NCBI RefSeq assembly: GCF_000337575.1
Contig: NZ_AOIM01000040.1
Coordinates: 1 to 51,155 of the forward strand
Source: Natrialba hulunbeirensis JCM 10989
Lineage (GTDB): Archaea > Halobacteriota > Halobacteria > Halobacteriales > Natrialbaceae
DNA: 51,155 nucleotides
Reading direction: 5' to 3'
Shown here piece after piece: positions 7,108-32,904 of the stretch. A program made the position numbers and the translations under genes. Every line of letters begins with the position of its first letter. The stretch's first letter is position 1. The notes below the pieces were generated by a model that saw only the letters and a program-made list of their open reading frames with translations, made no database searches and had not been told where the DNA came from.

Positions 7108-7115
7108 ATAACAAA
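7108..7115 (+). promoter_or_regulatory. ATAACAAA element, copy 1 (upstream of GT4)
   Basis: Exact ATAACAAA followed by ACGCC. It ends 31 nt upstream of the GT4 start codon at 7146, which suits a core promoter element of a leaderless transcript. It is one of six exact copies in the window, all upstream of surface-glycan genes. Confidence 0.5.
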
Positions 7116-7145
7116 ACGCCGAGGGCGCCTTTCTCTACTCCCGAG

Positions 7146-8063
7146 ATGCACGTCCTCACGCTGACGACGAACGCCGAGGCGCCGTTCATGACCGAGCAGA
7201 TGCGCGCGCTCGAACGTCGCGGCGTCACCTTCTCGACGCTCTCGGTCGCCGGCGAGGTCGACGGCGGGACGTCCCGAAGCCCACTCGAGTACCTGAAATT
7301 TTTCCCCTCGGTCCTGAAGGAGTCGGGCAACGGCTACGATCTGATCCACGCCCACTACGGCCTGACGGGGCCGATGGCGGTCGCACAGCGGCGCACACCC
7401 GTCGTGCTCTCTCTCTGGGGGTCTGACGTGTATGGGCCGGTTGAACCCGTTAGTCGCGCCTGTGCGCCGTTCTGTGACGAACTGGTCGTCATGTCCGAGG
7501 CAATGCGAACCCACCTCGGCCGAGAGTGTGCCGTGATTCCGGACGGCATCGACCTCGAGAAGTTCCAGCCCGTGCCCCAGGAGGCGGCCCAGGAGGCGGT
7601 TGGCTGGGACCCCGACGCCTACCACGTGCTCTTTCCCTACACCCCCGAGCGCGAGGTGAAGAACTACCCACGTGCGCGACGGGTCGTCAACGCGGTCAAC
7701 GGCCTGTTCGACGATCCAGTACACCTGCACACGGTCTACGACGTGCCCCACGAGACGGTGCCGGACTACATGAACGCCGCCGACGCCCTGCTGTTGACCT
7801 CTCACAGTGAGGGGTCGCCGAACTCGGTGAAAGAAGCTCTCGCATGTAACCTCCCCGTCGTTGCCGTCGACGTGGGTGACGTTCGCGAGCGTCTCGATGG
7901 CGTCTCGAACTCCGTCGTCGCGGACAGTGACGAAGCGCTGATCAACGGACTTCGGGGGGTACTCGAGTCCGGCGAGCGCTCGGACGGGCGAGAGGCGGCA
8001 AGGGAGATCAGTGTGGATCGGACGGCAGACCGGTTGCTCGAGGTGTACGAGCGGGTTGCGTGA
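7146..8063 (+). CDS. Glycosyltransferase family 4
   Basis: This 305-residue protein begins MHVLTLTTNAEAPFMTEQM. Upstream in-frame codons to 7014 run through the promoter and are not conserved-looking. It has the GT-B architecture: an N-terminal acceptor domain with HAHYGLTGPM, the linker segment FPYTPEREVKNYPRA, and the nucleotide-binding EX7E motif E222-GSPNSVK-E230 in SHSEGSPNSVKEALACNLPVV. It is a little shorter than most GT4 enzymes (350-400 residues) but has both domains. It transfers a sugar from a nucleotide sugar with retention. The acceptor is unknown, though the cluster points to a surface polysaccharide or glycolipid. It is transcribed divergently from DUF354, with a probable core element at 7108. 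Confidence 0.88.
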   Translation: MHVLTLTTNAEAPFMTEQMRALERRGVTFSTLSVAGEVDGGTSRSPLEYLKFFPSVLKESGNGYDLIHAHYGLTGPMAVAQRRTPVVLSLWGSDVYGPVEPVSRACAPFCDELVVMSEAMRTHLGRECAVIPDGIDLEKFQPVPQEAAQEAVGWDPDAYHVLFPYTPEREVKNYPRARRVVNAVNGLFDDPVHLHTVYDVPHETVPDYMNAADALLLTSHSEGSPNSVKEALACNLPVVAVDVGDVRERLDGVSNSVVADSDEALINGLRGVLESGERSDGREAAREISVDRTADRLLEVYERVA

Positions 8064-8099
8064 GGCGGGGAGGATACTGAGTGAAGCGACCGTTTTCGA

Positions 8100-8318
8100 C
8101 TACACGTCATCCGGTTCGAGCAACTGGATGCTGATCGAGATGAAGTAGACGAACATGAACATGAAGAAGCCGGCGGTGAGCGGCAGCAGCCGTCGGTCGA
8201 CGATCGCGAGGTCCAACAGTGCCGCGCCGGCGATCGCGAGACAGTAGACGAGAATAATGAACACTCCCACCGCGTAGTAGAACCGGATGTCGGAGTCGAA
8301 GTACTCGCGCACGACCAT
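8100..8318 (-). CDS. Small two-helix membrane protein
   Basis: This 72-residue protein has two clear transmembrane segments, at about residues 14-37 (YYAVGVFIILVYCLAIAGAA) and 45-65 (LPLTAGFFMFMFVYFISISI), separated by a short charged DRR loop. It ends in the acidic tail LLEPDDV. I do not recognise a family. It converges with the GT4 gene, leaving 36 bases between them. TA-rich bases (CTACTATA) sit directly before its start codon. A role in the glycan cluster is suggested only by location. Confidence 0.65.
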   Translation of the reverse strand: MVVREYFDSDIRFYYAVGVFIILVYCLAIAGAALLDLAIVDRRLLPLTAGFFMFMFVYFISISIQLLEPDDV

Positions 8319-8454
8319 CGTATAGTAGACGGTTGTGAGACGCCAACGAAAAGGGTACTGGTCCGTCCGTAGAACGCCACTACCCCGCCAAACACCGCTT
8401 TCTATGCCCGTTCATGTTCGCACTGACCGTCCCACCGGGAGCGCCAGTGGGCCG

Positions 8455-31514: not shown

Positions 31515-31564
31515 TCCATCATCCACCACCCACTGCGGATTACCCGCTACCCACCGTACCCCAC

Positions 31565-32701
31565 TCACTCCCAGCGAAGCGCGCCACCGACCGACTCGAG
31601 TTCCGCCGGATCGACGTGCTGGTGAACCGGCAGTGTCACGATTTCGCGCGAGAGTCGCGTTGCGGTCCCGTATTCGGGGTTGTCGAGGACGTTGCCGGCG
31701 AGTCGCGGCCAGGTGTGGACGCCGTCGACGCCGACGCGCTCGAGTTCGGCGATGAACGCGCGGGCGTCGTCGGTTCGAACCGGAAGTGCCTGCGGACAGA
31801 TGCCGTCGGGAAGCGAGCCGAAGACGGGTTCGAGGGAGTCGTATCCGTCGAGAACGCGCCGCCAGGTACGGAAGTTTTCCCGTCTCGTCTGCCGAATCTC
31901 GGTCGGGTCGATATCGCTTGCAAGGTAGGCTGCGAGCTTCGACATCGGTGTTTTCCACGCCTCGTACCGCTCAGCAGGGGTGCCGACGGCCGGTGTGTCG
32001 GAGTCGTCGCGCCGTCTGGCGAGCAGCGCGTCGACCGAGTGGCGAACGGGCGGTGCGGTGTCGAGGAACTCCTGAAGTACCGATTTGAGGATGTATCGGC
32101 AGTCCGCGGTGTCGACGTTCCCGCGGATGCCCGCGAGTGACGAGGGCTCGTACCGGTTGCTAACCGAGTCGTCGTTGCAGTAGAGCACCGCGCCGTTCGG
32201 AATCGGCAAGAGCTTCCAGAGACTGGTAATGCCGATGTCGCCGCGAGTACCGAGCAGCGTCCCGTGGTCGACGCTCAACGGCGCGTGGGCGTTGTCGTCG
32301 ATGTGATAGCAGCCGGCGTCGGCGGCGATGGACTCGAGTTCCGCGAGTCCGGGCTGGGGAAAGCCGAAGTAGTTCACCGACATGACGGCGAGGGTATCGT
32401 CGTCGAGTCGCCGTTCCAGATCGACGAAATCGGGAGCGAGTGTCGGTTCGACGGCGTAGTAGCGCGGTTCGAGTCCGAGTTCACGAAGTGGTTCGACGAC
32501 ACCATCCGGCAGGTACGCCGGGACGAGGACGTTCTGCTGTCGGGTGGCGTCGACGAGTCCGGCGAGACCGTCGCGCAGCGCGACCTTCCCGGAGCCGTAG
32601 AAGTGAAAGTCGTCGGCGTAGCGACCGACGAACGGTTCGATGCCGGTTGGCTGCTGGGTCGGCAGCGACGCCACGAGCAGCGATGGCGTGCCGCTAATCA
32701 T
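31565..32701 (-). CDS. DegT/DnrJ/EryC1-like PLP-dependent protein (divergent)
   Basis: This 378-residue protein starts MISGTPSLLVASLPTQQPTG. A GTG at 32752 gives 17 more residues and fits the leaderless spacing from the degenerate element at 32771. The fold type I transferase pattern is visible: HFYGSGKVALRDGL in place of the usual SGTxAL, VPAYLPD, then YHIDDNAHAPLS, and ITSLWKLLPIPNGAVLY with a lysine where the Schiff-base residue should be. The usual GEGG glycine motif is replaced by PNGA, so it may act on an unusual substrate or have lost aminotransferase activity. The C-terminal part contains CPQALPVRTDDARAFIAEL, as in the family. It diverges from the phosphatase-superfamily gene at 32921. 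Confidence 0.75.
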   Translation of the reverse strand: MISGTPSLLVASLPTQQPTGIEPFVGRYADDFHFYGSGKVALRDGLAGLVDATRQQNVLVPAYLPDGVVEPLRELGLEPRYYAVEPTLAPDFVDLERRLDDDTLAVMSVNYFGFPQPGLAELESIAADAGCYHIDDNAHAPLSVDHGTLLGTRGDIGITSLWKLLPIPNGAVLYCNDDSVSNRYEPSSLAGIRGNVDTADCRYILKSVLQEFLDTAPPVRHSVDALLARRRDDSDTPAVGTPAERYEAWKTPMSKLAAYLASDIDPTEIRQTRRENFRTWRRVLDGYDSLEPVFGSLPDGICPQALPVRTDDARAFIAELERVGVDGVHTWPRLAGNVLDNPEYGTATRLSREIVTLPVHQHVDPAELESVGGALRWE

Positions 32702-32770
32702 CGGTTCGGAAGCCAGCTCGCAGCCCTTGTCACCGATACACACATCACGCACACATGGTCGCCGATGAGG

Positions 32771-32780
32771 GCCTTAGTGA
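32771..32780 (-). promoter_or_regulatory. Degenerate ATAACAAA-like element upstream of DegT-like gene
   Basis: The minus strand reads GCATCACTAAGGCCC, to be compared with GCATAACAAAGCCC on the other strand at 32895. It lies 19 nt before the GTG at 32752. It may be a weakened version of the same core element. Confidence 0.3.
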
Positions 32781-32896
32781 TGCGGCCGATACAGCCGACA
32801 GTGGTCGCGAAAGCAGAACTTACGGCGCTGGATCGGCCCGTTGACTGTCGACCGTTGGCTGCTGCAGACCGGGCTTACAGCCGGCCAAGCGCTCGC

Positions 32897-32904
32897 ATAA
32901 CAAA
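32897..32904 (+). promoter_or_regulatory. ATAACAAA element, copy 6 (upstream of second phosphatase-superfamily gene)
   Basis: The sequence reads GCATAACAAAGCCC, 16 nt before the ATG at 32921 and 25 nt before the in-frame ATG at 32930. The GCCC after the octamer is shared with copy 2. Confidence 0.5.

Follow-up and report, generated by a model that had tools for sequence, protein, structure and literature searches.

An oriented octamer at putative core promoters of surface-glycan genes in Natrialba hulunbeirensis and other Halobacteriales

Octamer copies in the window

The window is the whole 51,155-nucleotide stretch of Natrialba hulunbeirensis JCM 10989 analysed here (contig NZ_AOIM01000040.1, positions 1 to 51,155). 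It carries surface-glycan genes, and the octamer ATAACAAA occurs in it six times, each copy facing the start of a glycan gene. Positions around the octamer are numbered from its first A, which is 0; W stands for A or T. The six copies, one variant and one possible degenerate copy are listed below with the predicted transcription start site (TSS), the gene that each faces, the distance in nucleotides (nt) and, where given, the set of orthologous promoters (FAM) and its size. G denotes a genome, L a locus and f a family, f1 being Natrialbaceae-type (61 genomes) and f14 Haladaptatus-type.

7108..7115, + strand: ATAACAAA; predicted TSS about 7141; glycosyltransferase (GT4) gene 7146-8063, 30 nt to the ATG; A at -9, T at +22, CC at +32/33 (initiator not matched)
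11688..11695, - strand: ATAACAAA; predicted TSS about 11662; GFO/IDH/MocA oxidoreductase gene 10556-11659 (-), 28 nt to the ATG; GTA at -11 to -9, no W at +22, TA at +32/33; octamer in orthologous promoters, FAM 2, n = 36
12776..12783, - strand: ATAACAAA; predicted TSS about 12750; polysaccharide-deacetylase-like gene 11768-12736 (-), 39 or 57 nt to the start codon (GTG or ATG); A at -9, T at +22, GT at +32/33 (unmatched); FAM 1, n = 43
12963..12970, + strand: ATAACAAA; predicted TSS about 12996; type I phosphodiesterase 1 gene 13015-14613, 44 nt to the start codon; FAM 0, n = 68
17739..17746, + strand: ATAACAAA; predicted TSS about 17772; gene 17820-19628 for a large membrane protein with no Pfam family, 73 nt to the ATG; FAM 3, n = 35
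32897..32904, + strand: ATAACAAA; predicted TSS 32930, which is the ATG of the phosphodiesterase 2 gene (leaderless, gene to 34555), 25 nt; 16 nt from an upstream ATG in the same frame; A at both -9 and +22, CA at +32/33
7021..7028, - strand: variant ATTACAAA; predicted TSS about 6995; DUF354-like gene 5891-6994 (-), 26 nt away, whose orthologues carry the octamer elsewhere (FAM 5, n = 14); GTA at -11 to -9
32774..32781, - strand: possible degenerate copy ATCACTAA; before the DegT aminotransferase gene 31565-32752 (-); GTA at -11 to -9

The closest named relative of the window phosphodiesterase is from Natrialba chahannaoensis (94% identity).

The original prediction had reported the six exact copies; its coordinates and strands are all correct, and the window holds no seventh. 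Its estimate of fewer than one copy by chance was borne out by a mean of 0.02 over 100 dinucleotide shuffles. It had also called all six intergenic. The copy at 32897 falls within a longer mechanical open reading frame (ORF; 32264-34555), and the description holds there too, as the orthologues start 25 nt 3' of their own copy; in L051, L052, and L056 the octamer is likewise exactly 25 nt from the start of phosphodiesterase 2. Three features had been overlooked: the A exactly 9 nt upstream of the octamer at all six sites, the variant at 7021, and the possible copy at 32774. The variant is counted as a window site on the strength of its usage elsewhere: judged from flanks alone, 32 of 38 copies of ATTACAAA are promoter-type, as are 17 of 35 copies of ATAACAAT. 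The copy at 32774 is a tentative eighth site, with a flank score of 6.8, two mismatches, and a distance of 21 nt to the called start that does not fit.

By Poisson probability, ATAACAAA ranks eighth among all 17,370 8-mers of the window (P = 3e-10; six against 0.08 expected) and is the strongest AT-rich signal. The seven that outrank it are six CTCGAG/ACTCGA variants and one GC-rich 8-mer. As a separate observation, ACTCGAGT is heavily over-represented in the window, with 82 both-strand counts (41 sites) against about 6 both-strand counts expected, and so are related CTCGAG 8-mers.

The source genome (4.16 Mb) holds 36 copies of ATAACAAA and 22 of the reversed octamer. From the genome count 0.44 copies would be expected in 51 kb, and six are present, so the window is a real cluster. 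The octamer alone is near background outside the window, and the window itself is a dense cluster; what is said of whole genomes is based on pattern counts and sequence stretches. When the copies of the source genome are ranked by flank score, five of the six window sites are among the top, with 12963 first (14.5) and 17739 at 10.8; the flank profile includes the six window sites, whose ranks are therefore not independent. The other top-ranked sites precede a DUF354-like gene (C42), a DUF1616-like gene, a PadR-like gene (C37), and one small membrane protein gene, or lie near the end of contig C39. PadR-like genes on C35 and C39 have lower flank scores with the A at -9 present. Roughly a third of the copies in the source genome look functional.

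Orientation and anatomy of the element

Seventy loci (1.40 Mb) were compared, 69 fetched with the phosphodiesterase gene from many haloarchaea plus the window. They contain 249 copies of the octamer, while the median for 56 arrangements of its letters is 5. The runner-up, TAACAAAA, has 61 copies and overlaps the octamer itself. The octamer lies between divergent genes 156 times, in tandem spacers facing a gene 68 times, in tandem spacers facing away 0 times, between convergent genes twice, and in genes 20 times. Divergent pairs have one copy per direction, as at 12776(-)/12963(+) in the window and, with the variant, 7021(-)/7108(+). Such strict orientation fits a core promoter and not a symmetric operator. 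Within one genome, the same oriented site is found before unrelated, non-homologous genes of one function. At two loci (L184:3023 and L187:3073) the element stands before a short conserved ORF (ERFDEQVTLEI.../QRFDEKIILEI..., about 60 codons) that the gene caller had not predicted.

Sites were aligned on the octamer, and 110 non-redundant sites gathered around one gene family were used (an earlier set held 62). The A at -9 is present in 102 of the 110; it is preceded by T, A, or C and, further out, mostly by G or A. After the octamer, G is preferred at +8 and C at +9. Further downstream, W occurs at +22 in 89 sites, a pyrimidine at +32 in 86, a purine at +33 in 91, and the complete pyrimidine-purine step in 80, where 27.5 would be expected. 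The element can thus be written as ATAACAAA, more exactly AT[A/T]ACAA[A/T], with G or C as the usual next base and an A 9 nt upstream that often has G and a pyrimidine before it.

The 72 sites with a start codon farther than 45 nt away were analysed apart to rule out the start codons of leaderless genes as the source of the initiator signal. A(-9), W(+22), and the pyrimidine-purine step were found in 70, 62, and 50 of them, against 14, 28, and 18 expected. In 42 sites of families f6, f7, and f14, a set that lies mostly outside the motif-defining one and is not de-duplicated, the counts were 35, 36, and 25 (9, 17.5, and 10.5 expected). The six window sites have the A in all cases, the W in five, and the step in three.

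Almost no octamer lies less than 25 nt from a start codon, and the distances rise steeply at 25 to 28 nt. With a start at +33, a gene whose start codon lies 25 nt past the octamer would have no leader at all; in Haloferax, 72% of protein-coding transcripts are leaderless (PMC4983044). A TSS at this position, 25 nt past the octamer, would place the upstream A at -42, the octamer at -33 to -26, and the W at -11. These coordinates bear on the possibility that the element belongs to the transcribed leader of glycan operons, as an RNA signal like JUMPstart/ops for RfaH. Its association with glycan genes and the many copies 45 to 120 nt upstream of the start codon would suit such a role, but few copies are found less than 25 nt from the ATG, and the octamer would not be transcribed because the predicted start is 25 nt 3' of it. 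An RNA leader element is disfavored by this initiator position and is very improbable.

The canonical haloarchaeal core promoter consists of a B recognition element (BRE) CGAAA, a TATA box TTWT, and WW at -10 (consensus quoted in PMC4983044). At about -27, where a TTWT-type box would stand, AT[A/T]ACAA[A/T] was found in its place, and in long-leader genes no second AT-rich box stands at TATA distance upstream of the ATG. There is no CGAAA-type BRE next to the box and no A-rich signal at -8 to -1 of the octamer, the conserved base being the A at -9. The A/T near -10/-11 and the purine start are represented by W(+22) and the step at +32/33, given the predicted TSS. Ordinary genes in the same loci have a weak A at -34/-33 and a weak T/A at -29 to -26 from the ATG. 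These signals are apparently the BRE and TATA box, in the same place as the octamer.

Distribution and candidate readers

The extended pattern GYA-N8-ATAACAAA occurs 345 times in the 61 Natrialbaceae-type genomes, against 46 for its reversed form, with an excess in 60 genomes and a deficit in none. The majority of the family genomes examined, like several further genomes, have a large part of their octamer copies packed into one or two stretches of 20 to 45 kb. The following are examples, and similar stretches are present in G011, G013, G010, and G020.

G014 C3:107-145 kb: dense stretch, 9 copies
G007 C3:205-239 kb: dense stretch, 8 copies
G012 C7:405-449 kb: dense stretch, 6 copies

The dense stretches are glycan clusters. 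They encode GT4, GFO/IDH oxidoreductase, deacetylase-like, DUF354-like, and large membrane proteins and two type I phosphodiesterases, and further families are DUF1616-like proteins, hexapeptide acetyltransferase, GlmS, sugar epimerases, and flippases (names partly from Pfam, partly read from the sequences). In a class-wide draw, a related extended pattern was strong in f14 (31 vs. 0 in G077, 28 vs. 3 in G085) and in f7 (12 vs. 0 in G021); it was also strong in some f4 and f5 genera and near background in others. In f14 (G077, G085, G113) the element is expanded and its sites are mostly dispersed. Recurrent non-glycan targets there are a DUF7344 gene and the genes of two small proteins, a GLWPP membrane protein and a zinc-finger-like protein; a beta-propeller-like protein is a further target. 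The element thus appears to be in wide use across the order Halobacteriales, mostly in surface-glycan clusters and at some regulators.

Two proteins encoded side by side in the window are candidates for reading the element.

25411..26364, + strand: TFB (TFIIB homologue) paralogue with BRE helix TTVVTVRNRY; a candidate reader that the element does not require
24016..24615, - strand: DUF7344 winged-helix protein; candidate regulator with two predicted membrane helices, encoded divergently next to the TFB

The cluster TFB could be the dedicated reader, acting in archaea much as an alternative sigma factor would, with an altered BRE helix that fits ATAACAAA in place of the usual BRE. Its gene sits within the same cluster, and orthologues are found at E<1e-150 in 54 of the 61 family genomes; they are monophyletic (support 100/100) on a long stem. 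The BRE-reading helix differs from that of other TFBs, being TTVVTVRNRY in 24 of 24 orthologues and [ST]EVTIRNRY, with E for the first V, in 25 of 25 comparison TFBs drawn from a subset of these genomes plus two further ones. In the TFB-TBP-BRE structure 1d3u, it is the second cyclin repeat whose helix contacts the BRE, and the Pyrococcus TFB there reads TEVTVRNRY, again with E in place of the first V. A different TFB gene, in G021 (L064:5954-6916), has ATAACAAA in its own promoter (site L064:7031, TA at -10/-9). However, the special TFB is not present wherever the element is used: G012, G070, and the f14 genome G113 have 3, 5, and 8 extended copies, and none of the TFBs read there has such a helix. 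Outside f1, a degenerate DNA pattern detected no altered helix, which is suggestive only, as the sensitivity of the pattern within the family is about 55%. The promoter of the cluster TFB itself lacks the octamer. As relatives without it use the element, this TFB is not required as a reader and was rejected as the sole or general one; that it is the dedicated factor is unlikely. Equally doubtful is a version in which the Natrialbaceae TFB would be a sigma-like factor specialized on an older, order-wide ATAACAAA class, with DUF7344 proteins as membrane-bound regulators.

Two other features of this gene may be recorded. Its promoter (in the window, L149-L152, and L199-L218) has a conserved palindrome-like GTTTC...CGAAAC followed by CCCCTTACAG. 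A gene for an XPB/RAD25-like helicase (window 26336-28717) starts 29 nt inside its 3' end, and roughly half of the loci read (L051, L052, L206, and others) have a helicase relative just 3' of the TFB.

The DUF7344 protein may instead be a membrane-anchored winged-helix activator that binds the element and couples the state of the envelope to the glycan genes. Inside the glycan clusters of seven genomes (G000, G007, G010, G011, G012, G014, and G021) 18 DUF7344 genes were counted against 2.1 expected; these clusters were chosen by the octamer, and the co-location indicates association with glycan clusters, not binding. One DUF7344 gene is the constant divergent neighbor of the cluster TFB, and the f14 DUF7344 gene has the element in its promoter. 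The predicted model (pLDDT 73) is a winged helix with two long C-terminal helices; the nearest folds are ArsR-type regulators, a weak match with E-values of 0.05 or worse. Among 14 control genomes, DUF7344 was found only in Haloferax volcanii. No single orthologue can be tied to the element because each genome has 15 to 37 copies. Such an activator is rather unlikely.

PadR-like regulators are also among the carriers, which raises the question of an operator for a PadR-like (PhiH1-type) repressor overlapping a degenerate TATA box. Of 18 family loci with cluster-type PadR genes, 17 have the octamer there, in nearly every case 35 nt before the ATG, and three PadR paralogues of the source genome carry it. 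The octamer is, however, non-palindromic and strictly oriented, and a pure operator needs no fixed spacing to the initiator. The family occurs in 115 of 116 genomes of the order, including those where the element is nearly absent, and the octamer was upstream of none of the 10 PadR loci readable outside f1. As PadR is near-universal and the element is not, PadR was rejected as the order-wide reader, and the operator reading is quite unlikely.

Interpretation and relation to known systems

The existence, orientation, spacing, and conservation of the element are established by the sequence statistics. We consider it probable that the element is a non-canonical haloarchaeal core promoter through which a dedicated factor switches glycan genes together. 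The core promoter part alone is highly probable. Given that part, a dedicated reader and common control are moderately probable. The octamer would occupy about -33 to -26, in place of BRE and TATA box, followed by the usual weak A/T at -11 and a pyrimidine-purine initiator, and A(-42) would precede the octamer core by about one turn of the helix. A sequence-specific factor may read the pair of A(-42) and octamer and recruit TBP/TFB and polymerase. Scattered surface-glycan genes and a few regulators would thereby be switched together.

The shared core promoter variant proposed in the original prediction is supported by the fixed spacing to the -11 W and the pyrimidine-purine start, by the strict orientation, and by the BRE/TATA position. 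Its further proposal, that scattered glycan units would be tied into one regulon, gains support from the clustering of the element at glycan genes in most relatives examined, but the gene set is wider than glycan and takes in PadR-like regulators (Natrialbaceae) as well as a DUF7344 gene and several small proteins (f14).

The octamer could also be an unusual TATA/BRE spelling that ordinary TBP/TFB read without any dedicated regulator, and that was inherited or is kept because it makes a weak promoter. Its position is identical to that of BRE/TATA, and non-canonical boxes are known, e.g., GTTACA at bop (PMC2121645). Against this, a near-invariant 8-mer plus A(-9) is common to unrelated genes, which is far stricter than TATA spelling, and the bias toward glycan genes is strong. 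We regard an ordinary spelling as rather unlikely, and the core promoter with a dedicated reader is preferred.

Several points weigh against that preference. None of the candidate readers tracks the element across families. Expectation maximization (EM) for the canonical TATA/BRE at the same loci yielded a weak motif that could not be interpreted, and the evidence for a contrast with ordinary promoters therefore comes mainly from the weak ATG-anchored signals and the published consensus (PMC4983044). Start codons came from a simple gene caller, and the 110 sites were drawn from around one gene family, in which orthologous promoters are not independent. Within the window, 7108 and 12776 lack either base of the pyrimidine-purine step, 17739 lacks the pyrimidine, and 11688 lacks W(+22).

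Haloarchaea have many TFB and several TBP genes, which have long been proposed to read different promoter classes. To our knowledge, sequence-defined haloarchaeal promoter classes are scarce. The element is a sharply defined candidate for such a class, as it would replace BRE/TATA, spans much of an order, and marks cell-surface glycan genes, which may form a separately controlled set. It offers a direct test of promoter specificity, using the element, A(-42), the changed-helix TFB, DUF7344, and PadR in cultivable Natrinema, Haloterrigena, and Haladaptatus.

In the open-access literature, nothing was found on the octamer or its complement in haloarchaea, on its putative contact at -42, or on a tie to surface glycans. 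Non-canonical boxes in archaeal promoters, like the concept of TBP/TFB-specific classes, are already known (PMC2121645, PMC7289017); this sequence appears to be new.

Compared with the canonical haloarchaeal promoter, the element has the same position relative to the predicted start, the A/T at about -11, the pyrimidine-purine initiator, and leaderless spacing for part of the genes. It differs in that ATAACAAA, a near-invariant 8-mer, replaces BRE/TATA, in the extra A at -42, and in its restricted gene set. The bop promoter of Halobacterium, with the TATA box GTTACA and no recognizable BRE, likewise departs from consensus at the TATA position, and a special TBP-TFB pair has been proposed for it (PMC2121645). 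However, bop is one gene with another sequence, whereas the present element is found at tens of promoters across an order and has the putative contact at -42. For haloarchaea, promoter classes specific to particular TBP/TFB have been proposed (PMC2121645; review PMC7289017). In those terms the element would be a gene-set-linked class, next to which one family also encodes a TFB paralogue. Unlike in the one-factor-one-class form of that proposal, other families use the element but have no such TFB. The EarA-dependent fla promoter of Methanococcus also serves surface-structure genes and is reported to need a dedicated activator that acts near the BRE (PMC5512572); it is likened here by description, not by sequence, and differs in organism and gene set.

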